Of a stretch of 64,000 nt of DNA, positions 24,781 to 63,670 are shown in pieces. The notes below the pieces were generated by a model. It did not search any database. It was not told where the DNA came from and worked only from the letters and a program-made list of their open reading frames with translations. The stretch is from Immundisolibacter sp. (lineage in GTDB: Bacteria; Pseudomonadota; Gammaproteobacteria; Immundisolibacterales; Immundisolibacteraceae), in the NCBI RefSeq assembly GCF_014359565.1, contig NZ_JACIZD010000011.1, positions 1 through 64,000 on the forward strand, read 5' to 3'. The stretch's first letter is position 1; each line of letters starts with the position of its first letter. The translations under genes and the position numbers were made by a program.

Positions 24781-27163
24781 GCGCCCTTCTCGTCTTGACG
24801 AAGCCTGTGCCCGGCCCCGTTGGGGGCGCGGCATGCCGTGTTCCTATGCCGCCCTCATCCCGTCTTCATAAGGCCTCGGCCCGACCGGGTAGGGGCGACG
24901 CATGCGTCGCCCCTACGGGTCTTAATCCCTTCTTCATAAGGTCTGGGTCCGTTCCCGCTATTATCGAAGGGGCGCTGTACTTGTGCGCGTCTTAATCCCT
25001 TCTTCATAAGGTCTGGGTCCGTTCACGTGGAGCATGGTAAATGATTACTTTCTTTCGTTTCTTAATCCCTTCTTCATAAGGTCTGGGTCCGTTCGATGGA
25101 CTGGGCGGACCCAAGCGGGTGGCGGCGTCTTAATCCCTTCTTCATAAGGTCTGGGTCCGTTCTGGCCCTGCTCGACAACCTCACCCGCGAGCTGAGTCTT
25201 AATCCCTTCTTCATAAGGTCTGGGTCCGTTCTAAAAACCATGACTAAGCAAGAGCTGGCCGCCAGTCTTAATCCCTTCTTCATAAGGTCTGGGTCCGTTC
25301 GCGACCTGCCAGACACGCAAGCAAAGCGCGAGGCGTCTTAATCCCTTCTTCATAAGGTCTGGGTCCGTTCGAAGGCTACAGCAAAGCCATCGCCACGTTT
25401 GCTTCTTAATCCCTTCTTCATAAGGTCTGGGTCCGTTCCCTTTGCGAAGGCTGGACCGCACGCTGCCAAGGGTCTTAATCCCTTCTTCATAAGGTCTGGG
25501 TCCGTTCGCCTCCCTGGTGAACAGGCTCAAGGGTGTCTCAAGGTCTTAATCCCTTCTTCATAAGGTCTGGGTCCGTTCTTGAGAAGAAGGTAGACCGCCG
25601 CAGCCGAAAGGGTCTTAATCCCTTCTTCATAAGGTCTGGGTCCGTTCGGTCTTTGCCATACACCAAATAGCCCCGGACCGAGTCTTAATCCCTTCTTCAT
25701 AAGGTCTGGGTCCGTTCGTTCTCTTGAGTTTCGTATGCACCCTGGGTGTACTGAGTCTTAATCCCTTCTTCATAAGGTCTGGGTCCGTTCTGGTCTTGTT
25801 GCCTAGTGCCTCACGATACTCGGTCTTAATCCCTTCTTCATAAGGTCTGGGTCCGTTCAGTACCGGCCGACGAATAAATTCCCTTCCTCCCGTCTTAATC
25901 CCTTCTTCATAAGGTCTGGGTCCGTTCCGCCAAAGCGGACCAATCGCGGACGCAAACCGCGTCTTAATCCCTTCTTCATAAGGTCTGGGTCCGTTCGAAG
26001 GTTACAGCAAGGCCATCGCCACGTTCGCGTCTTAATCCCTTCTTCATAAGGTCTGGGTCCGTTCGAAACACCATGCGTAACGGAGCTCGCTCCTTGGTCT
26101 TAATCCCTTCTTCATAAGGTCTGGGTCCGTTCTGAAAACGACGTGGAAGGCCTTGACGCGACCGAGGTCTTAATCCCTTCTTCATAAGGTCTGGGTCCGT
26201 TCCTTGGGTTCATCCACAGCCTTGGCTGCTACGCCGTCTTAATCCCTTCTTCATAAGGTCTGGGTCCGTTCGCGAGTGCGTGACAAGTTGTGCGGCTCTA
26301 GCGAGTCTTAATCCCTTCTTCATAAGGTCTGGGTCCGTTCCGGTAGACTTCTCACAGCCGTGGGATATTGGGTCTTAATCCCTTCTTCATAAGGTCTGGG
26401 TCCGTTCTCCTTTACCTTGTTCGGTCAGGGGATTGTCTCGGTCTTAATCCCTTCTTCATAAGGTCTGGGTCCGTTCGCGGCATTCGACGCCATACCCGCC
26501 TAGATTCCGTCTTAATCCCTTCTTCATAAGGTCTGGGTCCGTTCTCACGGGCCTGGACGGGGTATATCTCCGCTGGGTCTTAATCCCTTCTTCATAAGGT
26601 CTGGGTCCGTTCCCCTGATGACCGGCGACGTTCTCATCGTGGTAGGTCTTAATCCCTTCTTCATAAGGTCTGGGTCCGTTCTCAGGATTTGCGAGAGGCC
26701 GCAGAACGACTTGAGGTCTTAATCCCTTCTTCATAAGGTCTGGGTCCGTTCCATCACGTTCAGCGCTTCGTCCATCAACTTCGGTCTTAATCCCTTCTTC
26801 ATAAGGTCTGGGTCCGTTCCCATGCGGCAAGCTCGGCTTCGGGCGTTTCTGCGTCTTAATCCCTTCTTCATAAGGTCTGGGTCCGTTCGCTCGGGCCGGT
26901 GAAGATCGCCGAGGCGCTTCCGTCTTAATCCCTTCTTCATAAGGTCTGGGTCCGTTCGGCTGCGCTCGCCAGGATGGACAAATGAGCGCGTCTTAATCCC
27001 TTCTTCATAAGGTCTGGGTCCGTTCCCTGGCCGACGCCTACGACGCAGCGCAGGCGGCGTCTTAATCCCTTCTTCATAAGGTCTGGGTCCGTTCTATTCT
27101 ACAGAATAAATAGGCAACCAGATATTCGTCTTAATCCCTTCTTCATAAGGTCTGGGTCCGTTC
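24781..27163 (-). CRISPR. CRISPR array, 33 intact 36-base repeats plus two decayed repeats
   Basis: Intact repeats run from 24919-24954 to 27128-27163, separated by 32 spacers of 31-37 bases. Read as transcribed (minus strand), the repeat starts GAACGGACCCAGACC and ends GAAGGGATTAAGAC, so the 8-base crRNA handle would be ATTAAGAC, similar to type I/III handles. Left of the array are a decayed repeat at 24851-24886 (26 of 36 matches) and a more decayed one at about 24781-24816, both in register. Old repeats at the left and cas genes at the right put the leader end at the right. Repeats at 25059 and 25403 have T for G at the first plus-strand base, changing the last handle base. Confidence 0.97.
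24889..24916. repeat. Perfect 28-base palindrome in the oldest spacer position
   Basis: The spacer between the decayed repeat and the first intact repeat is almost entirely a perfect palindrome with arms GTAGGGGCGACGCA and TGCGTCGCCCCTAC. It resembles the REP-like arms seen at 20,925-20,988 and near 2,660. It is either a REP element that landed in the array tail or a structure serving as a terminator for the array transcript. Confidence 0.6.
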
Positions 27164-27539
27164 AGCTCCGTATATTCCCTCCTTTCAGGTCAGTCAGTTG
27201 TGCCGGGGGTTGACGATGGTTCGACCGCCCCGAGGGGTCAGGGGTTGGCGCCAGCACGTCAAGACCCTGCTCCAGAAGGTAAACGGCTTCCGGCAGGGCG
27301 CTGCGGCCGTAGAACACCCAGTCCGGTCGCTGTGGCAGCGGGTACAGCCGCACGTCGTCTTGTGGGGCGATGATGCTGTTGATGGTGGCTACCAGGTGGC
27401 GAATACCGCGGCGCGTGAAGCGCCCGACGAATACCGAGTATTGCACGGCCAGGGCTTGTTTCTTGAGCGCACGGTGCAGGGTCACCAGGCGGCGCGGTTC
27501 GCGAACGTCGTAGGCAATGAGCCAGGTCTGGGTGTTCAT
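27162..27539 (-). CDS. cas2: Cas2, second copy (extended C-terminus)
   Basis: A 125-residue Cas2. The ferredoxin-like start WLIAYDVREPRRL carries the conserved Asp at residue 11, followed by a YSVFVGRFT strand and a DDVRLYPLP strand. The family norm is about 90-100 residues; here about 28 extra residues rich in Pro, Ser and Asn follow LEQGLDVLAP. Its TGA stop (27164-27162) shares two bases with the first CRISPR repeat, so the extension is encoded by the DNA that should act as array leader. It differs strongly from the other Cas2 at 29303. It partners in the Cas1-Cas2 integrase; which Cas1 it binds is unknown. Confidence 0.88.
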   Translation of the reverse strand: MNTQTWLIAYDVREPRRLVTLHRALKKQALAVQYSVFVGRFTRRGIRHLVATINSIIAPQDDVRLYPLPQRPDWVFYGRSALPEAVYLLEQGLDVLAPTPDPSGRSNHRQPPAQLTDLKGGNIRS

Positions 27540-27582
27540 CGGATGTTGGGGGGCGGTTGTGCTGGACCGGGCCGGTGGCGGC

Positions 27583-28338
27583 TCACAGGCCGAGGCTGAA
27601 CAGGCTGGCGATCAGGCGTCGGCATGTAGCCACCAGGCCCGGCTGCAGGGATCGGTGGTAGATGGCGGCGGCGGCGGCGAGGTTGTCGGCCTGCATGGGC
27701 ACCGGCGCGGTGAGCAGTTTCCCCCGCAACGGCCATTGCAGGAGACTCTGCAAATCGTCCGCCAGATGCCCGGCCGGGCCGAGGCCGGCAAGCTGGTCGG
27801 GCGCCAGTCCAGCGCGCGTGAGCGCCGCTGCGATGTCGGCCCGCAGCAGGCTGTTCAGGCGCTGCTGGCAGCTGTCGGCCTGGGCGCCAAGACGCGCCTG
27901 CACGGCCTGGTGCAGACGCTGACGCAGGCCGTGTGCGCGCAGGACATCCTCGGGCCAGCCCAGCGCCCGGCAGGTGTAGGCGGCGCGGCGATGGTGCTGC
28001 GCCATGAGCCAGGTGTGGTATCGCTGCTCCCAGTCGGGGCGCGCGGCGGCCATTTCCAGGCGCGCGCCGAGGCCCAGGTGATCGGCCGGTACACCGCTGG
28101 CAATGCCGGTGCAGCGGTCATCGAGGTCCAGAAAGGCCACCACCAGGCCCTGCTGGACGCATGCCTGCAAGGCATCGCCGCGCCAGCCGACCGGGCCGCG
28201 GCACAGGATGTAGGACAGGCGGGCGAAGGGGTACCACACGGGTGCCAGATCGCCCGCCGTGACTTGCAGCGCCGGGCCGGCGCGCTCCACGATCAACGTG
28301 CTGCGGCCGTCAAGGTAAAGCGTCTTGCTCGGTCCCAT
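27583..28338 (-). CDS. Cas1-like protein lacking catalytic residues
   Basis: A 251-residue relative of Cas1, shorter than the usual 320-340. The N-terminal beta domain is recognisable (TLYLDGRSTLIVERAG, ARLSYILCRG, then QGLVVAFLD), matching the start of the Cas1 at 28310. The C-terminal helical domain keeps the pattern RLNSLLRADIAAAL, AGLAP and ADDLQSLL. The Glu of the GxEGxAA motif is absent, and the Gly-Phe-Leu-His motif is replaced by GLGPAG; only an Asp (residue 194 or 195) may align. The frame is intact and overlaps cas1 by 29 bases, so it is translated. It may be a structural, non-catalytic Cas1 subunit. A decaying cas1 duplicate is the alternative. Confidence 0.7.
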   Translation of the reverse strand: MGPSKTLYLDGRSTLIVERAGPALQVTAGDLAPVWYPFARLSYILCRGPVGWRGDALQACVQQGLVVAFLDLDDRCTGIASGVPADHLGLGARLEMAAARPDWEQRYHTWLMAQHHRRAAYTCRALGWPEDVLRAHGLRQRLHQAVQARLGAQADSCQQRLNSLLRADIAAALTRAGLAPDQLAGLGPAGHLADDLQSLLQWPLRGKLLTAPVPMQADNLAAAAAIYHRSLQPGLVATCRRLIASLFSLGL

Positions 28339-29299
28339 CGGGGTTCTCGGTCAGGGCGGCTGGACAGGCGGCGCGCGCGGCGGCGGCCAGGCGCCGGCAC
28401 AGGTGGCGCAGTGCCCGACGCTGCGGCGCAGCGAACTGTTCGTAAGCGACGAAGAAGGCCTGCCGGCCGGCCTTGCCCAGGCGGCAGCGACCGGCCTCGG
28501 TGTGGAAGTGATCGGCGCGCAGGGTGCGTTCGGCAAACAGCCGCCACAGCCAGCCATCCAGGCGCGGGCGCAGCGGTTCGATGAGGTCGCTGGCCAGCGA
28601 TTCGCGGCCGAAGGCCAGGCCGTGCAGAAAGCCGATGTACGGGTCCAGCCCGGCGCCGTAGGCGCTGCGCACGGCCTCGAAATGCAGCAGCGTGTAGCCG
28701 AGCGACAGGGCCGCGTTGACAGGATCCGGCGGCGGTCGGCGGCGGCGGGCGGTAAAGCCAAGCGTCGGCGGCATGACCCCGGCCAGGGCGCGAAAGTGGG
28801 CTGCGGCGGCAGCCCCTTCCAGACCGCGCAGCGTGGCCAGGTCGCCGGCCTGGTCCAGCGCCGGCAGCAGGGCGTACACAGTGTCGATGCTTTTGGTCAG
28901 ATGGCGTGACTGATCGGCCCGCTGGCGTCTGACCTGACACAGCAGGCGCCACTGACGGCGCACTTTGTGGGCCAGAAGGCGACGCGCGGTGGCGAGCGTC
29001 CAGGCCGGGTCCTGCGCCAGGCGCATCTGACCGATCCGCACGCGGGCGTCCTGATGGGGACGGCCATGGACGATGGCCACCCGCTCGCCGCTGCGGGGGC
29101 CAAGCAGCAGCACGCCGATGCCGCGCTCGGCCAATGCCCCCAGCGCACTGCTGTCGGTGCGCACGGCGCTGGTGACGACCACCCGCTCGAGCAGCGCCAG
29201 CGGCACGTCCTGCGCCGGGCCGCCGTCGGTGCGCAGACGCAGTCGGCCGGCGTGGTGGGTCACTTCCAGGCCCTTGCGGTCCAGGTACAGGGTGCCCAT
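28310..29299 (-). CDS. cas1: CRISPR-associated integrase Cas1
   Basis: A 329-residue Cas1, the metal-dependent integrase of spacer acquisition. It has the N-terminal beta domain (MGTLYLDRKGLEV) and a helical catalytic domain with all conserved metal ligands: E161 in RGLEGAAAAAHF, H226 in GLDPYIGFLHG and D238 in SLASDLIEPLRP. The PPPDPVNAALSLGYTLL signature is also present. It starts three bases after cas2 at 29303 and overlaps the cas1-like gene downstream. The C-terminal tail after residue 300 is Ala/Arg-rich. Confidence 0.93.
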   Translation of the reverse strand: MGTLYLDRKGLEVTHHAGRLRLRTDGGPAQDVPLALLERVVVTSAVRTDSSALGALAERGIGVLLLGPRSGERVAIVHGRPHQDARVRIGQMRLAQDPAWTLATARRLLAHKVRRQWRLLCQVRRQRADQSRHLTKSIDTVYALLPALDQAGDLATLRGLEGAAAAAHFRALAGVMPPTLGFTARRRRPPPDPVNAALSLGYTLLHFEAVRSAYGAGLDPYIGFLHGLAFGRESLASDLIEPLRPRLDGWLWRLFAERTLRADHFHTEAGRCRLGKAGRQAFFVAYEQFAAPQRRALRHLCRRLAAAARAACPAALTENPDGTEQDALP

Positions 29300-29302
29300 C
29301 GG

Positions 29303-29587
29303 TCAGCCGGCGTAGAAAAACGGCGGGTCGACCGCCGGCACGGCGCAACCCAGCGCCACGGTCTGCGCGCGCGGGTCCAGGCGCAGCAGGAAGAAGCGGT
29401 CGCAGCGGCTGTCCAGCAAGGCGGCCATGTCGGCCAGCAGGGCGCCTTTCTCGGCCGGCGTCAGAAAGCACTCGTAGACGGATTTCTGACCGCCGGTGGC
29501 GTAGGCGCGCACCAGATCGAGCGCGGCTTGCAGCCGGCGCGGGCAGGCCACGTCGTAGGCGGCCAGATGCAGGGCACGGTCGGGCAT
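29303..29587 (-). CDS. cas2: Cas2, first copy
   Basis: A 94-residue Cas2 of normal size. LHLAAYDVACPRRL holds the conserved Asp at residue 12, then QKSVYECFLT and a C-terminal RFFLLRLDPRAQ strand. ATG at 29587 has GGGAG six bases upstream and is preferred over the longer frame. Immediately followed by cas1 (three bases). It probably forms the dimer bridging two Cas1 dimers, alone or with the second Cas2 at 27162. Confidence 0.9.
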   Translation of the reverse strand: MPDRALHLAAYDVACPRRLQAALDLVRAYATGGQKSVYECFLTPAEKGALLADMAALLDSRCDRFFLLRLDPRAQTVALGCAVPAVDPPFFYAG

Positions 29588-29697
29588 GGTGGGCTCCCGG
29601 TGGCAGGAAGCCGGTATCGAATCACGAATTCCGGCGGCCGCCCGCTGCGGCAAGCTTGCGGACCCGCAGCACCGGCTGGTCGTTCATCCGGGCCCGG

Positions 29698-30213
29698 TCA
29701 GGCCGGACGCAGCGGGCCGAAATTGCTGTATTGGCCGGCTTCGTGGTGATAAAGCAGCAGCCGTGCGCCGTTGGCGAACTCGGCGCCCACCAGCGCCGCC
29801 ACCACGGCCGGTCCGGCATGAAAATAATGGATGCAGTCGGCGCCGGCTTTCAGGAGTTGCGCTGCGACGTGGCGCAGCTCGCGGTGCAGGTCGGGCATGT
29901 CCTGCGCGGTGATGGCCCGGTCGCGCCGCACCACCAGGATGCGCTCATCGGGAATGGCGGCCAGCGCCGGCTGCTGGCGGCGGAAATTCTCGACGCTGGC
30001 CCGCACGTCCTTGCCGGCCAACAGGTCGACGATCAGGATGGCCGGGCGCTCGCCGGGCTGGCGGCGGATGGCGTTGAACCAGCGCCGTTCGCGCCGACGG
30101 CGGCCGAACACCACATCCCACCAGGTCCACACGATGGGCACCAGCGCCAGCAAGCCCAGCACGACCCCGATGGGGTCCAGCCAGTCGGCGATGAAGGCGC
30201 GCAGCGCGTCCAT
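29698..30213 (-). CDS. Membrane-anchored SAVED-domain protein (predicted cyclic-oligonucleotide effector)
   Basis: A 171-residue protein with one transmembrane helix at about residues 14-32 (IGVVLGLLALVPIVWTWW), a basic RRRRER stretch, and a soluble domain at about 55-165. The end of this domain (DCIHYFHAGPAVVAALVGAE, then LLLYHHEAGQY) has the hallmark of SAVED domains, which sense cyclic oligonucleotides in CBASS and in some type III CRISPR systems. Type III effectors with a membrane helix are thought to permeabilise or depolarise the membrane when activated. It lies three bases after csx16 and upstream of cas2. The SAVED call is by motif reading only; a CARF-like variant is possible. Confidence 0.65.
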   Translation of the reverse strand: MDALRAFIADWLDPIGVVLGLLALVPIVWTWWDVVFGRRRRERRWFNAIRRQPGERPAILIVDLLAGKDVRASVENFRRQQPALAAIPDERILVVRRDRAITAQDMPDLHRELRHVAAQLLKAGADCIHYFHAGPAVVAALVGAEFANGARLLLYHHEAGQYSNFGPLRPA

Positions 30214-30216
30214 TGC

Positions 30217-30513
30217 TCAACTCCCCACGCGCCGCACGCAGTATTCCTCCAGCCGCGCGCCGCAGGCGGCCATGTCGGCGGCGCTCAGCTCCCGCCCGCG
30301 CCAGTCCGGCGGCAGGTCCAGTGCCAGGTGCACGTAACGCGCGCCCTGGCTGCAAACCGCCGCGGCCAGGTTCACCGGCAGGGTACCGATGACGGTATCG
30401 CCGGCGCCGACCTCGGCCGGGTCCAGGTGCGCCAGCAGCCGGTCCACGGCCAGACCCTGCGCCTGCGCCCAGGCCGCCGCGCCGGGATGGCGGGAGACGA
30501 AGAAGGTGGTCAT
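30217..30513 (-). CDS. csx16: CRISPR-associated protein Csx16
   Basis: A 98-residue protein matching Csx16 (VVA1548 family): the opening TTFFVSRHPGAAAWAQAQG, then DTVIGTLPVNLAA, YVHLALDLPPDWRGREL and a closing ARLEEYCVRR. Csx16 is found almost only in type III loci, and I recall recent work assigning it ring-nuclease activity that degrades cyclic oligoadenylates. Next to a SAVED membrane protein, such an off-switch makes sense. Four bases after cmr6, same transcript. Confidence 0.88.
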   Translation of the reverse strand: MTTFFVSRHPGAAAWAQAQGLAVDRLLAHLDPAEVGAGDTVIGTLPVNLAAAVCSQGARYVHLALDLPPDWRGRELSAADMAACGARLEEYCVRRVGS

Positions 30514-30517
30514 GGCG

Positions 30518-31753
30518 TCATTTACCGCCCAGCCAGGCTTTCACCAGCAGGGTGTTCTGGTAGTCCTTGTCCTTCTCGGGCTTTTTGGCTTGGCTGGATT
30601 CCTTCCACTGGCCTTTCGCCTCCCGCATTCTGGCTTCCAGCCAGCGAGCCACGGCGATCTTGTCCTCGCCCTGCCAGCGGCCCTGCTTGACGGCGCCGAT
30701 GACCGCCGAAAGTTCAGGTTGATTCTTATCCGGGCGCTGGTCCAGGAACTCGGCGATGGATCGCTCGATGGGACTCATTCTTTCCAGTGCTTCTGCATGC
30801 TCCCGGGCCTCGCGCTGTGCTGCCAGCTCGGCTTGTTGTCGCGCCTCGTGTTCGATCCGCTCTCTTTCGCGACGCTGTTCTGCCTGCCGATCCCGTGTCA
30901 TGGCGCCGTACCCCACTGCCGTCTTGGCGCCAAAGCCGAGCCATTCGAAGGCGTGTTCGAAGGCTGCGGTGAGCAGCCTCTGCCACTGCGGCTTGCCATC
31001 GGCGTCGTTTTCGAGCAGCGCCGGCGCCAGGCGACCCAGGTGTGCCCTGTCGCAGATGACGTGAAAGCTGAAGTCCGAGCCCGGCGGCACGGTCAGGAAA
31101 CTGATGGGTGTGGGCTGGCCGGAGTCGTGGGGAGTGACGCTGTCTCCTGACTTGCGCTCCGGTTTTTGCTGGTAGTAGTGCGACTGGTGCGGGGTCATGA
31201 TTTCGACCAATAGGCTGTCGCCGGCGATCCGGGGGATCACGTCCCAGAAGCTCAGCGCGCCGCGCACGTGGTCTGAGTCGCTGCCAGACGCTACGGGGCC
31301 AAACAGCACGTCGCACATTGACAGCGCGACAACCTTTTTCTGTATCACCACGGAAAACGGCTTGTCGTCATCGGGCCGCCAGCCGGCTGCGTCACCCCAA
31401 TCGCCGCTGGCCAGCTCCCGCGCCGCCTGGCGCAGCCCGCCCTTGACGCCGGAGCCCGGAAGATACGGCAGGCCATAGGGATTCAGGAAGGCAAACCCGT
31501 TTTCCAGCGGGTGTTCGTTGCCAAGGCCGGTGGTGAAGGGCGCGGTAGCTCTGGCATCCAGGCACAGTCCTTCGGCGGCTGTAACCATGTCGAACAGTCG
31601 TTGCTGTCGGCTTCCCAGCGCGCTCATGGATGCGCGATCGGAGGCAGTCAGGCGGGTCACCTTCTTCCAGGCTTCGCGCGCGGCAGAGTCGTTCTTGTTC
31701 CACAGCTCCGGCAAGCGCTGTTGACTGATTAGCTGGGCAATGGTTGCGTCCAT
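30518..31753 (-). pseudogene. cmr6: Cmr6, type III-B RAMP subunit, 5' end probably removed by the prophage
   Basis: The remaining 411 codons carry the Cmr6 signature: TGLGNEHPLENGFAFLNPYG, then LPYLPGSGVKGGLRQAAREL, HDSGQPTPISFLTVPPGSDF and the glycine-rich GFGAKTAVGYG. A helical C-terminal extension follows. Cmr6 caps the crRNA-bound Cmr complex. The frame stays open for 54 codons upstream of the ATG at 31753, up to a TAG at 31916-31918, and that stretch (SRAATREDQEREVTTRAAKG and onward) looks like the missing N-terminal part. Prophage sequence begins right after. Genes cmr1-cmr5 are not on this side. A functional shortened protein from the internal ATG cannot be excluded. Confidence 0.8.
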
Positions 31754-31944
31754 GCCTTCTCGCTCGAGCAGCGCTGCGACTTCCTGTGCTTGCCGGCTAC
31801 CTTTGGCGGCCCGCGTGGTTACCTCACGCTCCTGATCTTCGCGTGTAGCGGCGCGCGATAAATCGGGCTGTTTGGTGCAATAAATGGCTGGGCCTGCATT
31901 TTGCGCTGTGCGTAGCTAAATTGCGGATGCTGCAATGGCGGCAT

Positions 31945-31987
31945 GACCATCGAGCCGGCACGTCGGGGGCGTACCGGCTCGATGGTC
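31945..31987 (-). terminator. Strong hairpin after the last late prophage gene
   Basis: A 14-base perfect inverted repeat (GACCATCGAGCCGG / CCGGCTCGATGGTC) with a 15-base loop lies three bases beyond the dam stop. It probably ends the late transcript or stabilises its 3' end; no T run follows on either strand, so termination strength is uncertain. Confidence 0.5.
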
Positions 31988-31989
31988 GT

Positions 31990-32766
31990 TCACCAGTTCA
32001 TCACTGCCAGCTCGTAGCGGGGTGCCTTCTTGGTGGCCGCTGATCGGCCGATGGTGTACCTGGTGGTGAGTCGGCGTTGGCGGAATCCGGCGAACACTTC
32101 CCGCATGTCGGGGTGGTCGTTGATTGTCAGCAGTGCGCGGCCCTTGAGGCTCCTAAGCGTCCGCGCCAGGGCTTGGTATTGGTCGAGGCCGAACGGGACG
32201 CCGTAGCCCTCGGTTTGCCAGTACGGCGGGTCACAGAAGAAGAACGTGCCGGGCCGATCATAACGGGCAACGCACGCATCCCAGGGCAGGTGCTCGATGG
32301 TGACGCGAGCCAGGCGCAGGTGCGCCGCGCTCAGATCCTCTTCGAGCCGCAGCAGGTTGATGCGGGGCGGGCTGCCGGCGTCGGTGCCGAAGGTCTGGCC
32401 GGATACCTTGGCGCCGAAGCTCGTCTTCTGAAGGAAGAGGAACCGCGCAGCGCGCTGGATATCCGTCAGCGTGGCCGGCGCGCTGGCCAGCAGCCGTTCG
32501 AATTCCTCGCGTGCCACCAGTTGCCAGCGGAACTGGCGGACGAACTCGTCCAGGTGATGCTTCACCACGCGGTACAGGGTCACCAGTTCGCCGTTGATAT
32601 CGTTGAGCACTTCGACCTTGGCGGGCTCGGACCGCAGGAACAGCATGGCTGCCGCACCCGCGAAGGGCTCGACGTATGTCGTGTGGTCCGAATCGAAAAG
32701 CTCCATCAGCTGCGGCGCGAGGCGGCTCTTGCCGCCTGGCCATGGAATCAATGTGCAGGTCTTCAC
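31990..32766 (-). CDS. dam: DNA adenine methylase (Dam, D12 class)
   Basis: A 258-residue N6-adenine methyltransferase. The SAM-binding motif is PWPGGKSRLAP near residue 8 followed by YVEPFAGAAAMLF near 34, and the catalytic motif is FFFCDPPYW (DPPY) near 178. Length is close to the family norm. GTG at 32766 is chosen because the homology starts at once after it (KTCTLIPWPGGK). Many Mu-like phages place DNA-modification genes at this end of the genome (as mom in Mu) to protect their DNA from restriction. Last gene of the late block. Confidence 0.85.
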   Translation of the reverse strand: MKTCTLIPWPGGKSRLAPQLMELFDSDHTTYVEPFAGAAAMLFLRSEPAKVEVLNDINGELVTLYRVVKHHLDEFVRQFRWQLVAREEFERLLASAPATLTDIQRAARFLFLQKTSFGAKVSGQTFGTDAGSPPRINLLRLEEDLSAAHLRLARVTIEHLPWDACVARYDRPGTFFFCDPPYWQTEGYGVPFGLDQYQALARTLRSLKGRALLTINDHPDMREVFAGFRQRRLTTRYTIGRSAATKKAPRYELAVMNW

Positions 32767-32908
32767 GCGATCACACCTTTTGGTTCTGAGGGCACCTAGA
32801 CTTGCCCGGCTCTCGAGAGCAGCAGGGCCTAGGCCAATGCCACGCGGCGGATCGCGTGTGTTGCGGCGGCGGGCCGTCCGCTTGCCGGCGGCGGCCCGTC
32901 GCCCTGTC

Positions 32909-33376
32909 TTACGCCGGCGGGATGCACCCCCTGCGCAGCAGCTGCGCACCCAGCGCGCCCAGGGCGGCGCCGATGAGGTGGGCGGGCCAGGCAATGCCGG
33001 CGTAGGCGGGGCCGAGTGTGGCGAAGATGGCTTGCGAGCCTAGCCAGGCCAGTGCCACGGCGCCGGCGGGGCAACCCATCAGTCGGCCGTGGGGGCGCAC
33101 TGTGAGGTACGCGGCCAGGGCTGCGGCGGCGGCTCCGCTGGCGCCGATGACGGGCCGGGCGAGCAGGCTCGCGGCGATGGCGTTGGAGGCCAGTGCAGCA
33201 GCGGCGAGCAGGACGACAGCGCGGCGCGCGCCAAGGGTGGTGGAAATGGACGGCCAGCACGCGGCCAGCATGAGCAGATTGGCGGCAAGGTGCAGGCTAT
33301 CGTGATGATGAAACACGCCGACGCGCACAACAGCTTCGCGCACATCTGTGATGCAAGCCAGCACCGCAGCCGCCAA
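32909..33376 (-). CDS. Rhomboid-like intramembrane serine protease
   Basis: About 155 residues, nearly all hydrophobic helices (about five or six segments). Features of rhomboids are visible: the HDSLHLAANLLML helix with the His and Asn of the oxyanion region, the nucleophile motif GASGAAAAAL, and a late helix with His in AWPAHLIGAALGALGA. It therefore has a plausible Ser-His dyad. The start is unclear: TTG at 33376 is the first codon after the upstream stop, with GTG at 33364 as an alternative. It sits between a DUF2793 virion protein and dam in the late transcript, an unusual cargo for a Mu-like phage. Confidence 0.6.
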   Translation of the reverse strand: MAAAVLACITDVREAVVRVGVFHHHDSLHLAANLLMLAACWPSISTTLGARRAVVLLAAAALASNAIAASLLARPVIGASGAAAAALAAYLTVRPHGRLMGCPAGAVALAWLGSQAIFATLGPAYAGIAWPAHLIGAALGALGAQLLRRGCIPPA

Positions 33377-33377
33377 T

Positions 33378-33737
33378 TCAGACGGCCACGCCGGCGGACC
33401 AGGCGCCGGCCCGGAACACGCTGAGCTTTTGCTCGTCCTCGATGTGCGCCAGCGTGCCGGTGCGCAGGGGGCCGGAGAATATCCACGCCGCGCCATCCCA
33501 CACCGTGGCTTCGTTTTCGTGGCCGGCCCAGGCCCCTGTAGCGGGGGCGGCGGGGATGTAGGTGTCGCCGGTGGCGGGGGAGCCTGGCGGGGCGGTTAGG
33601 TCGCGATCCTTGGCCGACAGGTGCAGGCCAAACCGGCCGATGCGCAGGATGTTGTCGTTCATCTCCGCGGACCAGCCGGACTCGCCGAGGGACCAGCCGT
33701 ATTTAAGGCCGCTGCGGGGTTCGGTGCTGGATGGCAT
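33378..33737 (-). CDS. DUF2793 phage protein
   Basis: A 119-residue protein with the DUF2793 pattern: SAKDRDLTAPPGSPATGDTY, then GAWAGHENEATVWDGAAWIF and the closing KLSVFRAGAW. DUF2793 modules are found at the ends of tail tip or fibre proteins and next to them, and are thought to be part of the tail tip. Starts 180 bases after the tail-tip gene; the gap between them (33738-33919) shows no gene. Confidence 0.75.
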   Translation of the reverse strand: MPSSTEPRSGLKYGWSLGESGWSAEMNDNILRIGRFGLHLSAKDRDLTAPPGSPATGDTYIPAAPATGAWAGHENEATVWDGAAWIFSGPLRTGTLAHIEDEQKLSVFRAGAWSAGVAV

Positions 33738-56684: not shown

Positions 56685-56879
56685 GGCGGACGGCCGAGGA
56701 GGTAGCCGCCCGCCGGGCCGACGTGGAGGAGGTCACGCCGACGCCGTCACTTTCCCCGCTCAGGCGCCGCGAGGCATTGGGCCGCGTTCACAGGAATTCC
56801 CGCGCGCGCGCGTGGATAGTGGCGGGCAGTCGCCGACGTGCTGCACGCGCACAGTGCCAGCGTAGGGTGGAGCCGAAGC

Positions 56880-57212
56880 ATGCCGATCAAACCCGAGAAC
56901 AAAGCTCGATATCCCAAGGACTGGAAGCGCATCGCGGACGCAATCAGAGAGCGTGCCGGTCATCGATGCGAGGGCTCGCCAGCCTACCCCGACTGCCGCG
57001 CTGCCAACGGCACGCCGCACCCGGTGACTGGCTCACGCGTGGTGCTGACGGTGGCACATCTGGACCATACGCCGGAGAACTGCGAACCGCAGAACCTGAA
57101 GGCGATGTGCCAGCGATGCCACCTGACATATGACGCAGAGCACCACAAGCGAACCGCCTATGCGACCCGAAAGGCGGCAGCGCAAACAGCGGACTTATTC
57201 GACGCCGCTTAA
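56880..57212 (+). CDS. HNH-type endonuclease-like protein
   Basis: A 110-residue protein on the plus strand, opposite to the late genes. GGAG lies about 10 bases before the ATG. It has a beta-beta-alpha-metal core: GHRCEGSPAYPDCRAANG, then VAHLDHTPENCEPQNLKAMC with the His-Asn pattern and QRCHLTYD with the last metal ligand. Four Cys suggest a structural zinc. It may be a homing or packaging-associated nuclease. Forms a small plus-strand pair with the Acb2-like gene. Confidence 0.78.
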   Translation: MPIKPENKARYPKDWKRIADAIRERAGHRCEGSPAYPDCRAANGTPHPVTGSRVVLTVAHLDHTPENCEPQNLKAMCQRCHLTYDAEHHKRTAYATRKAAAQTADLFDAA

Positions 57213-58015: not shown

Positions 58016-58704
58016 TCCGCTGGCCTCAGACAGGCATCGATGGATGCCGCGATGCCTCGTAAAGCGCGGATTGCGGCATCCGGGTGGGCAGCGTGCCAGG
58101 CGCCGACAGGCGCGAAACCATCGTTGGGGAGAGTGCCCGTATCGAGATGAGCACGGGTGATATTGCGAAAGCGCAGGTGGCTGCGGTCGGCGTTTGCGGA
58201 GGCGGCCAGCTCGAAGCGAATCACCGCGCGGGTGGTATCCACCAACGAGGCGCCGCCGTCGGCGGAACCGATGACGATGGCCGTTGCGCTGGCAGGATCC
58301 TCGTATTTGAAGATGTCGCCGCCTGGCACCGCAACGGTCTGCATACGCGGCGGCTGGAACAGGACAAGAGGCGGCGTGGTGCCGCCGGATAGGGTCACGG
58401 GCGAATTGCTTACAGCCATCGCCAGACACATCTTGAGGCGCCCGAAATCGGCGCCGCGCACATCCATCGCCAGCTCGTCGATGTAGCTGCCGCCTTCCGC
58501 TCTGGCCCGCAGGCTCACGCCCGGCTCTGCGCGCATGTCGGTCTCCGACTGCATCGATGCGCAGCCGGCCATGCCGGCGGCCAGCAGCAGCGTCATTGGC
58601 GCCCCCACCGGCGTCCGATATGACCCCGAAACGGATCGATTCCTGGCGTATATCACCAGCGCGCACGCGATCAAGAAGATCACAAGCCATTCACTTGACC
58701 CCAT
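58012..58704 (-). CDS. Prophage membrane or lipoprotein of unknown function
   Basis: If started at ATG 58704 it has 230 residues with an N-terminal helix (SSEWLVIFLIACALVIYARN). A second start at ATG 58596 gives 194 residues with a lipoprotein signal (MTLLLAAGMAGCASM, lipobox MAGC) and a GGGG-rich site before it. The mature part is about 170 residues with an acidic, beta-rich look (GGDIFKYEDPASATAIVIGS). No family was recognised. It sits between repressor and secreted nuclease and is probably co-expressed with both during lysogeny. Confidence 0.6.
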   Translation of the reverse strand: MGSSEWLVIFLIACALVIYARNRSVSGSYRTPVGAPMTLLLAAGMAGCASMQSETDMRAEPGVSLRARAEGGSYIDELAMDVRGADFGRLKMCLAMAVSNSPVTLSGGTTPPLVLFQPPRMQTVAVPGGDIFKYEDPASATAIVIGSADGGASLVDTTRAVIRFELAASANADRSHLRFRNITRAHLDTGTLPNDGFAPVGAWHAAHPDAAIRALRGIAASIDACLRPAE

Positions 58705-59170
58705 GGTCGTTTGTCTCCGGTTGTGTCAAAGGTTTCTTGGTTTTCTTTTCCGGCGCCAGGCGCGCCGCCAGCTTCTGAATCTGGGCCTTGTCTTCAGGAG
58801 CGCATGCGCGATAACTCGCCAGCAATGCCTCCTCCTCGTCCTCTAAATCATAAGACTGCACCAGCATCTCGAAGAACTGGGTCTGTAACCGGCGGAACTC
58901 TTCCGTGCCCTTCGCCGCCAGTCTCGCCATCTCGTTCGCCGCGGCAATCGCGCTGAACCGATTCCTCAGCTTCCGCGTACTGCCCGTCAGGATGTAGTCC
59001 ACGTTCCAGCCGGCCCCAGCCAGCCCGGCGAGCACGTCTGCGCCGGGCCGCGCTGTATCGCGTTCGTACTTGCCCCACATCTCACGTGACACACCGCCCA
59101 GTCGGGCCGCCTCGGCCTGGCTGAGTGAGTGCTCCGCACGCTGTTCCGCCAGTCTGGAACCAATGCTCAC
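58691..59170 (-). CDS. XRE-family repressor (probable prophage repressor)
   Basis: A 159-residue regulator. Residues 1-65 form a Cro/C1-type helix-turn-helix (LSQAEAARLGGVSREMWGKY, then ERDTARPGADVL and WNVDYILTG). The rest is a helical part with a Glu-rich turn (YDLEDEEEALLASY) and a basic tail, with no peptidase domain for self-cleavage. Divergent from the early genes across a short region with a palindrome, the position expected for the lysogeny repressor. Downstream genes on the same strand may be lysogenically expressed. Confidence 0.83.
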   Translation of the reverse strand: MSIGSRLAEQRAEHSLSQAEAARLGGVSREMWGKYERDTARPGADVLAGLAGAGWNVDYILTGSTRKLRNRFSAIAAANEMARLAAKGTEEFRRLQTQFFEMLVQSYDLEDEEEALLASYRACAPEDKAQIQKLAARLAPEKKTKKPLTQPETNDHGVK

Positions 59171-60710: not shown

Positions 60711-62510
60711 GTGTCGGGCGATGCACTGGTCCGCAGCGCCGCCGCGCAGCTGCTCCGGGCGCCGCATGGCACCAAGAGCAGCATCGTGGCGGGGCTGGCC
60801 GAGCAGCTGGGCTGCTCAGTCGCCACCGCGCACCGCCAACTGTCGCGCGTGCTGGCGGCGCTCAAGCCACGCCAGCGTCGGCGCGATGCCGGGGAAATGG
60901 CGCTTACCCGCGGCGAGGCCATGCACGTCGCCGCGATGATCCAGGAGACGCGCAAGCTGACCGGCACCGGCGAGCTGCCGGTCGAGGAGGCGGTGGAGAT
61001 CCTGCGCGCCAACCAGAGGATTGAGGCGACGCGGGTGGACCCGGCCACCGGCGAGATCGTGCCGCTGAGCGTGTCGTCGATCTGCCGGGCGCTGCGCGCC
61101 TATGGCCTGCATCGGGACCAGCTGACGGCGCCCACGCCGGCCACGCGCCTGTCCAGCCCGCACCCGAACTGGTGCTGGCAGATCGATGCGTCGGTGAGCC
61201 GGCAGTTCTACCTGGCCGACGACGGCACGCGGGTGATGGACAAGGCCGTGTTCTACCGCGGCAAGCCGCAAAACTTCGAGCGCATCGCCGACCGGCGGCT
61301 GTGGCGCTACGTGATCACCGACCACGCCAGCGGCGCCATCGAGCTGCTGTACGTGCAGGGCGCCGAGAGCTCCATCAACCTGCTCACGTCGCTGATCCAC
61401 GCCATGACCCGGCGCACCGACGGCACCATGCACGGCATCCCGCGGCATCTGATGATGGATCCGGGCAGCGCGGTGACCGCCAGCACGACGGCCAATTTCC
61501 TGGCCGCCTGCAATATCACGCCGATCATCAACGAGGTGGGCAACGCCCGCGCCAAGGGCCAGGTCGAGAACGCGCATTACCTGGTCGAGCGGCACTTCGA
61601 GGCGATGCTCAAGCTGCGCGCGCCGGTGAGCAGCCTGGAAGAAATGAACACCCTGGCGCAGGTGTGGGCCTACAACTACAACTCCTCTCGCATCCACACC
61701 CGGACCGGGATGTCCCGCCGTGACGGCTGGCTGCGCATCACGCGCGAGCAGTTGATCGAGGCGCCCTCGATCAAGGTGCTCAGCGGCCTGGCCAACAGCG
61801 CGCCCAAGCCCTGCACGGTGCGCGATTGCCGCATCCGTTTCCGCGGCGCGGTGTACGACGTGAGCGGCATTCCTGGCCTGATCAACGGCCAGCGCGTGCC
61901 GGTGGTGCTCAACGCGCTCGACCCGGACGGCAGCGTGCGCGTGTTGATGCCAGACCCGCACAGCGGGCAGACCGTGCACTACCTCGCGCAGCGGGAGAGC
62001 AGCGACGGCTGGGGCTTTGCCGAGGGCGCCGCGCGCATCGGCGCCGAGTACCGGGCCGCGGCGGAGACACCCGCCGACGCCGCGCGTAAGGAGCTGGAGC
62101 GGCTGGCCATGCAGGTGCGCACGGATGCCGAGGCCGTCGCCGCGCGCAAGGCCAAGAAGCTCGCCTTCAATGGCGCCATCGACCCGATGAAGCACATGCG
62201 CGAGGCCGTGGTGCCGCCGGCCATCCCCCGGGCCGGCACGGCCGGCGTGGTCGAGTCGCCGGTGCTGGCCGAGCGGTACATCGAGCCCAAGCCCATCCGC
62301 CACGAATTCCCGCCCCTGAATCACGTCGAGGCGGCGGTGGCGCTCAAGCCACTGGTGGAGCGCGCCGGCCAGCCCTGGACGGCTGATCTATATGCCCGCA
62401 CCGCCGCGCACTGGCCGGATGGTCTGCCGCGCGACCAGGTGGAGGCATGGGCCGCAGTGCTGGCCGCGCCGACCGGCGGCCTGCGGCTGATCGCGGGAGG
62501 CGCGGAATGA
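60711..62510 (+). CDS. Mu-type transposase A (DDE integrase)
   Basis: A 599-residue transposase starting at GTG 60711, two bases after the upstream stop. N-terminal DNA-binding helices come first (QLGCSVATAHRQLSRVL), then a retroviral-integrase-like core with the catalytic triad D159 (WCWQIDAS), D250 (LMMDPGS) and E286 (AKGQVENAHY), giving the expected D-35-E spacing. A C-terminal beta-barrel domain (RDCRIRFRGAVYDVSGIPGL) and a basic tail follow. It catalyses replicative transposition and integration with B. Similar in layout to the BcepMu transposase. Confidence 0.92.
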   Translation: MSGDALVRSAAAQLLRAPHGTKSSIVAGLAEQLGCSVATAHRQLSRVLAALKPRQRRRDAGEMALTRGEAMHVAAMIQETRKLTGTGELPVEEAVEILRANQRIEATRVDPATGEIVPLSVSSICRALRAYGLHRDQLTAPTPATRLSSPHPNWCWQIDASVSRQFYLADDGTRVMDKAVFYRGKPQNFERIADRRLWRYVITDHASGAIELLYVQGAESSINLLTSLIHAMTRRTDGTMHGIPRHLMMDPGSAVTASTTANFLAACNITPIINEVGNARAKGQVENAHYLVERHFEAMLKLRAPVSSLEEMNTLAQVWAYNYNSSRIHTRTGMSRRDGWLRITREQLIEAPSIKVLSGLANSAPKPCTVRDCRIRFRGAVYDVSGIPGLINGQRVPVVLNALDPDGSVRVLMPDPHSGQTVHYLAQRESSDGWGFAEGAARIGAEYRAAAETPADAARKELERLAMQVRTDAEAVAARKAKKLAFNGAIDPMKHMREAVVPPAIPRAGTAGVVESPVLAERYIEPKPIRHEFPPLNHVEAAVALKPLVERAGQPWTADLYARTAAHWPDGLPRDQVEAWAAVLAAPTGGLRLIAGGAE

Positions 62511-63670
62511 CGCTGCGCCTGAAACCCATGATGGCCGCCGGCCGCATCCGCCAGGCCGAGCTGGCGCTCGCTGCCGGCATCAGCCGGCCGGCGCTGTGCA
62601 GCCTGCTGGCCGCCGGCACCCTGCCCAAGCGCTACGACCGCCCGGAGGTCGAGCAGCGCATCACCGCTTTCCTGTCCCGTCGCGGCCTGCGAAATGCCGC
62701 TGCGTGGGCGGAAAAGGCGGAGCCGCCGTGTTGGAGCACGGCGGCTCCCGATCAACCCCAGAGCTTGCAACCCACCGAGGAGATCGCCGACATGCTACTA
62801 CGCAAGTCCACACTCACGCCGGCCGCGCGCCGGCACTTCAACCTGTCGGGTGACCCGTTCGCCGACCCGGTCACGGCCGACGACGTGTTCCTGTCGCCGG
62901 ACATCCGCTACGTGCGCGAGAGCATGTACCAGGTGGCCCGCCATGGCGGCTTTCTGGCCGTGGTCGGCGAGTCCGGCGCCGGCAAGTCGACGCTGCGCGA
63001 GGAGCTGGTCGATCGCATCCGGCGCGAGGCGCAGGCGGTGATCGTCATCGAGCCCTACGTGCTGGCCATGGAAGGCTCCGACTCGATCGGCCAGACGCTG
63101 CGCAGCCAGCATATCGCCGAGGCGATCATGGCCTGCGTGGCGCCCCTGGCACGCGCCAGGCGCAGCCCGGAGGCGCGCTTTCGCCAGCTGCACGACTGCC
63201 TGCGCGAAAGCGGCCGGGCCGGTCACAGCCACGTGCTGGTGATCGAGGAAGCCCACAACCTGCCGCTGCCCACGCTCAAACACCTCAAGCGGTTCCGGGA
63301 GCTCAAGGACGGCCTGCGGCCGCTGCTGTCGGTGATCCTGATCGGCCAGCCCGAGCTGGGCCTCAAGCTGTCCGAGCACAACCCCGAGGTCCGCGAGGTG
63401 GTGCAGCGCATCGAGGTCGTGCACCTGCCCACGCTCGGCCCGAGCCTGGGCGACTACCTCACGCATCGGTTCAAGCGCCTGGGCGTGGCGCTCGATCAGG
63501 TGGTCGAGCGCGGTGCCCTGGACGCACTGCGCAGCAAGCTCACGCCATCGCGCGGCGACGACAGCCTGCTGTACCCGCTGGCCGTGCACAACGCGCTGGC
63601 GGCGGCGATGAACCGCGCCGCCGACCTGGGCGTGCCGACGGTCACCGCCGACGTGTTCCGGGGGGCCTGA
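62507..63670 (+). CDS. Transposition target-selection ATPase B (MuB-like AAA+)
   Basis: A 387-residue protein starting inside the stop of A (ATGA). An N-terminal helix-turn-helix (AGRIRQAELALAAGISRPAL) is followed by a linker of about 60 residues. The AAA+ domain then has Walker A GESGAGKST near 154, Walker B SHVLVIEEAHN near 243 and a sensor region ILIGQPELG. MuB polymerises on target DNA, delivers it to A and gives immunity against self-insertion. It is also similar to ExeA/TniB proteins. Confidence 0.9.
   Translation: MTLRLKPMMAAGRIRQAELALAAGISRPALCSLLAAGTLPKRYDRPEVEQRITAFLSRRGLRNAAAWAEKAEPPCWSTAAPDQPQSLQPTEEIADMLLRKSTLTPAARRHFNLSGDPFADPVTADDVFLSPDIRYVRESMYQVARHGGFLAVVGESGAGKSTLREELVDRIRREAQAVIVIEPYVLAMEGSDSIGQTLRSQHIAEAIMACVAPLARARRSPEARFRQLHDCLRESGRAGHSHVLVIEEAHNLPLPTLKHLKRFRELKDGLRPLLSVILIGQPELGLKLSEHNPEVREVVQRIEVVHLPTLGPSLGDYLTHRFKRLGVALDQVVERGALDALRSKLTPSRGDDSLLYPLAVHNALAAAMNRAADLGVPTVTADVFRGA

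Follow-up and report, generated by a model that had tools for sequence, protein, structure and literature searches.

Insertion of mobile elements into cas genes is an already known kind of event. Natural insertions of insertion sequences (ISs) into cas genes, with target duplications, have been described in 163 cases, from 20 IS families (Sheng et al. 2023, PMC10359306). In S. epidermidis, escapers of a type III-A system carry IS256 insertions in csm5, csm6, or cas6, and these insertions abolish immunity (Jiang et al. 2013, PMC3784566). And in P. aeruginosa PA14 lysogens, CRISPR regions are lost through transposition of the Mu-like phage DMS3; in these lysogens, self-targeting selects for large deletions of the type I-F region (Suttenfield et al. 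2024, PMC11406979). Here we describe a natural case, resolved to the base, in which a transposable phage lies within a CRISPR effector gene, a second mobile element has inserted in the same operon, and a third cas gene is split elsewhere in the genome.

The 64,000 nucleotides that we analyzed (the window) are bases 1-64000 of a contig of 73,988 bp (C11) from a 3.09-Mb assembly in 27 contigs. The open reading frame at 30518-31753 on the minus strand is identified as Cmr6, a component of the type III-B complex, by its RAMP domain (PF03787). We found that cmr6 is cut at codon 34 by a 35.6-kb B3-like (Mu-type) prophage. The prophage occupies C11:31844-67417 (35,574 bp, with TG...CA ends), of which 31844-64000 is in the window. 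It begins with TGTAGCGG and ends with GTGCTCA, and similar motifs are repeated at both ends. The left border between cmr6 and the phage is at 31843/31844. The 3' part of cmr6 (30518-31843, minus strand) comprises codons 33-473, as determined from PF03787 and by comparing the joined frame to an intact Cmr6, and it includes one copy of the 6-bp target duplication TTCGCG (31838-31843). The other copy is beyond the window, at C11:67418-67423. The 5' piece of cmr6 starts with an ATG at C11:67519, has the sequence MSIAAVPHYLGEDFSAASPGMRFGMYLPIWTSRE, and stops at a TGA within the phage end, which gives a peptide of 34 residues. If the flanks are joined with a single TTCGCG, they form one frame of 473 amino acids. 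Across residues 1-473, this protein is 76% identical to the intact Cmr6 of a relative (L013), and the alignment is free of gaps at the junction; matches to its first 34 residues were found at about a dozen other loci. The right border is independently supported, because a phage relative from IMG/VR (L087) shares the same right end (CAAATATCTCACCC.TGCTCA) and then continues into unrelated DNA.

An ATG at 31753 opens a 411-amino-acid reading frame that contains the entire RAMP domain, but this is ruled out as the native start of Cmr6, as the homologues are longer. Homologues whose start is present begin well upstream of the position equivalent to 31753, most of them with M.IAAVP.YLG...ASPG.RFG. 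Residues 1-34 are the best-conserved part of Cmr6 among its homologues (mean 68%; the RAMP domain has 58% and the linker 19%). In the relative with the intact Cmr6, we noticed by eye that the same border between cmr5 and cmr6 took a different insert (L013:528-1224): an antisense open reading frame that resembles a ribbon-helix-helix antitoxin, along with its likely toxin partner.

These junctions bear out the main claim of an earlier sequence-only reading, that a Mu-like prophage interrupts the III-B operon within cmr6: the TG...CA ends, the target duplication, and the restored 473-amino-acid frame all agree. That reading also described 54 Cmr6-like codons upstream of the ATG at 31753, ending in a TAG where the phage begins. 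The frame is open for 54 codons up to the TAG, but only the 30 codons nearest the ATG belong to cmr6, while the other 24 are from the phage end. The TAG does not mark the border, as it lies about 73 bp inside the phage. A duplication of 5 bases was predicted, instead of the actual 6, while the missing start of cmr6 was correctly expected beyond the right end of the prophage, where we found its 34 codons. Homologues that begin at the ATG at 31753 were to count against the interruption; since the homologues start well upstream, the claim survives that test.

The prophage itself has the hallmarks of a transposable phage: MuA and MuB, TG...CA ends with repeated motifs, the 6-bp duplication, and insertion in a protein-coding gene rather than at a tRNA site. 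The MuA-type transposase is at 60711-62510 (plus strand; phrog_310, E = 6e-88) and the MuB-type DNA transposition protein (a MuB-type ATPase) is at 62447-63670 (plus strand; phrog_296, E = 8e-70). The right part of the prophage also includes a gene for a repressor-like regulator (58691-59170, minus strand, from PHROGs), a Mor-like activator, and a protein that we take to be GemA-like, given the position of its gene (its PHROG is of unknown function). The late genes are on the minus strand and are all directed towards cmr6. They encode the tail tip, tape measure, capsid, minor head, portal, and terminase proteins (33920-54386, from PHROGs) and, as the last late gene, a D12-class adenine methyltransferase that reads towards cmr6 (31990-32994, minus strand, PF02086). 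The structural genes expected for a B3-type phage are present (tail protein, portal, minor head, capsid, and tape measure). Among named phages, the tail protein is closest to those of the B3-like phages H72, B3, and PM105 (about 41% identity, covering 59% of the protein); a match to one Variovorax phage has larger coverage, with 31% identity. The prophage looks complete.

Searches with the left 4 kb of the prophage and with its transposase indicate that it is single-copy in this genome, and the transposase was not found in six other genomes of the host's family. We sought anti-CRISPR genes by comparing nine small phage open reading frames to NCBIfam and found nothing relevant. One small phage open reading frame (56838-57212) has weak similarity, under the NCBIfam cut-off, to the HNH part of ZorE. 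Just past the last phage late gene there is a 43-bp inverted repeat (31945-31987; 84%) with no run of T's, and it may keep some late transcription of the phage from reaching cmr6.

Beyond the right end of the prophage, and on the same strand as cmr6, C11 continues with the missing start of cmr6 and then cmr5 (C11:67516-67926, PF09701), cmr4 (about 67923-68860, found by reading on from the prophage right end), cmr3 (68870-70042, PF09700), cmr2 (70057-73176, PF12469), and the end of cmr1. Cas10/Cmr2, Cmr3, Cmr4, and Cmr5 are thus all present with open frames. Cmr2 (matching at C11:72097-72459) and Cmr3 each have one copy in the whole genome, both beyond the phage, and our search of the genome for a second Cmr set or a second copy of the prophage found neither. 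On the other side of the 35.6 kb of phage, all on the minus strand, are the rest of cmr6; csx16 (30217-30513; PF09652 and PADLOC's Csx16); a SAVED/CARF protein with two transmembrane segments (29698-30213; PADLOC's "CARF, 2 TMs", E = 3e-84, and SAVED_TM); two cas2/cas1 pairs (27162-29653, from profile matches and PADLOC); and, beside these III-B genes, the CRISPR array (24919-27163), with 33 repeats of 36 bp and 32 spacers. We inferred the transcribed strand of the array from its repeat and from the side on which the cas genes lie. The second cas1 (27583-28338) is PADLOC's "diverged variant, second in the loci," and the frame of its partner cas2 overlaps, at its end, the first array repeat.

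The contig ends inside cmr1. Its last 185 bp (C11:73804-73988) are the end of an element that is seen at several other contig ends. The first half of cmr1 is on another contig (C7:111938-112535), where it runs into the same element (C7:112536-112722). CTAG is found on both sides of the IS in cmr1, and the ends of the element match. The joined cmr1 frame has 405 amino acids and is 47-55% identical to Cmr1 from three relatives, over about 367-376 alignment columns. So neither cmr6 (split by the prophage) nor cmr1 (split by the IS) is intact. An end of the same IS, identified by its match to the element ends, is at 1-187 of the window (minus strand), where it is merely the contig boundary; C11 is bounded by this element at both ends. 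On C2, a related copy of its end codes for the final third of an IS5-type transposase, with a score below the NCBIfam cut-off, which makes the element look IS5-like. The IS is known from pieces at contig ends, none of which is assembled whole. Its copies in this genome are 99-100% alike, so it was recently active.

The sequence-only reading had expected cmr genes beyond the prophage, and cmr5, cmr4, cmr3, and cmr2 are there, on the cmr6 strand. Its description of the divided operon needs adjusting in three respects. It had cmr1-5 separated from cmr6 as a block, which is true of cmr2-5, but cmr1 is not whole and is itself split by the IS. It gave at least 32 kb of phage between the operon halves, and the full prophage is 35.6 kb. 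And while the phage does sever any operon promoter upstream of cmr1 (on C7) from cmr6 as stated, the IS also cuts it off from cmr2-5.

The genome also holds a type I-C locus (on C26 and C19) and a type I-G locus (on C3). The I-C cas7 (csd2) is split as well (C19:205-441 and C26:11978-12622), with each half beside the same IS as in cmr1. A clean target duplication was not found there: the flanks are CAAG and CTAG. A deletion or a recombination between IS copies is therefore possible, and an IS event is less certain for cas7. Among the three systems, only the I-G locus looks intact. Its Cas3 (L047:2238-5687, on C3) has a C-terminal Fic/DOC domain (residues 999-1101, with the motif HPFADFNGR), which is an unusual fusion.

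We compared all 81 spacers (32 from III-B, 21 from I-C, and 28 from I-G) to the prophage and found no convincing protospacer. III-B spacer 31 matches the phage portal gene at 26 of 33 positions, which is near chance: 4 of 400 GC-matched 33-mers from the host did as well, and 32 spacers were tried. I-G spacer 22 (L047:15209-15242, on C3) resembles part of the prophage's gam-like gene (C11:65097-65130): 27 of the 34 bases agree, and the match is in frame across GEVRWR.RP, a motif that we take to be typical of Mu Gam. This similarity hints at an earlier encounter with relatives of the phage. Neither spacer 31 nor the gam-like I-G spacer had a good match in a phage collection. III-B spacers 7 (25371-25402) and 16 (25997-26028) agree at 27 of 29 bases, which would fit two acquisitions from variants of one target. 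A degenerate-pattern search of IMG/VR with spacer 31 and with the pair of spacers 7 and 16 gave no match.

The two borders show that a B3-like transposable phage entered cmr6 at codon 34, with duplication of 6 bp of the target. The insertion leaves a 34-residue Cmr6 peptide that ends at the phage's TGA, with 35.6 kb splitting the operon, and cmr1 in this operon is split in turn by an IS5-like element. The IS in cmr1 alone should break the complex and sever the operon from its promoter. Inactivation of the III-B operon by insertion is well supported. The split cmr6 is likely to have lost its function, because the severed residues 1-34 are the best-conserved block of the protein; this is not certain, because the 411-amino-acid frame has a complete RAMP domain and transcription entering from the phage could cover it. 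Because cmr1 is also split, the system has very likely been lost whatever the shortened Cmr6 does. Our most likely reading, in which we have high confidence, is that III-B has recently become a doubly interrupted null, while the I-G system of the strain looks intact. As the phage and the cmr1-6 frames otherwise look undamaged, cmr6 might in principle be regained if the phage were to excise.

The phage is one of the two mobile elements that broke the III-B system. That it disarmed the defence, as the sequence-only reading had it, may be so, and is one of two open histories: the insertion in cmr6 stands, but the IS in cmr1 may suffice, no spacer convincingly targets the phage, and the RAMP domain survives. 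In the other history, the IS split cmr1 and killed the system first, and the phage then landed in an operon that no longer worked, making its site incidental. This order of events, to which we give slightly less than an even chance, fits the splitting of cmr1 by a multicopy IS whose near-identical copies point to recent activity, as well as the I-C cas7 split beside the same IS. However, the sequence dates neither insertion: both borders are intact, and neither half of the operon shows further decay. We also considered that selection may have been driving the strain to lose CRISPR immunity, through the prophage in cmr6 and through one and the same IS in both cmr1 and the I-C cas7. Three hits in two of the three CRISPR-Cas systems would then be more than random insertion gives. 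With cas loci making up about 1.2% of the genome, and with 7-9 IS copies and one prophage, the chance of three cas-locus insertions is about 1e-4 to 2e-3, although this was computed after the fact and is an indication only. Perhaps active CRISPR was a burden to a lysogen, given that the strain's spacers partly recognize this phage's family. Overall we consider selective loss rather unlikely.

Two other explanations seem much weaker than loss of III-B by insertion. III-B might be alive if a promoter within or behind the end of the phage drives a working 411-amino-acid Cmr6, in which case the prophage would only alter regulation; the in-frame ATG at 31753, the complete RAMP domain, and the phage late genes directed towards cmr6 would allow this. 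But cmr1 is split too, the lost N-terminal block of Cmr6 is strongly conserved, the 43-bp inverted repeat lies past the last phage gene, and a simple consensus scan (which is weak evidence) found no promoter-like site at 27000-33500, all of which makes a working system improbable. That the assembly wrongly joined the phage to cmr6 is more improbable still. C11 does end in repeats at both sides, but both junctions are within this one contig and agree to the base (the 6-bp duplication, the proper phage ends, and the restored frame), and the phage end recurs in L087.

For a cas locus that is called "disrupted by a prophage," naming a cause has to wait until the locus has been traced across contigs. 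If sister strains carry one insertion only, then the order of loss, and whether entry of the prophage followed or caused it, could be read directly.

In the open-licence literature we found no exact precedent for a type III effector gene interrupted by a transposable prophage, or for a Mu-like phage in any cas gene. The insertion in cmr1 is of exactly the same kind as those of Sheng et al. 2023; their cases are IS elements, whereas one of the two insertions here is a complete transposable prophage. As in the IS256 escapers of S. epidermidis, type III effector genes were hit, but those were type III-A and were selected in the laboratory by plasmid transfer, while this is a type III-B system in a natural genome. 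The phage shares Mu-type transposition genes and tailed-phage late genes with the Pseudomonas phages B3, H72, and PM105, but it is distant from them by sequence, has another host, and is 35.6 kb instead of 38-40 kb. And as with DMS3 in PA14, a CRISPR region was hit by transposition of a Mu-like phage; here, however, it is a simple insertion, with no deletion and no convincing self-targeting spacer.
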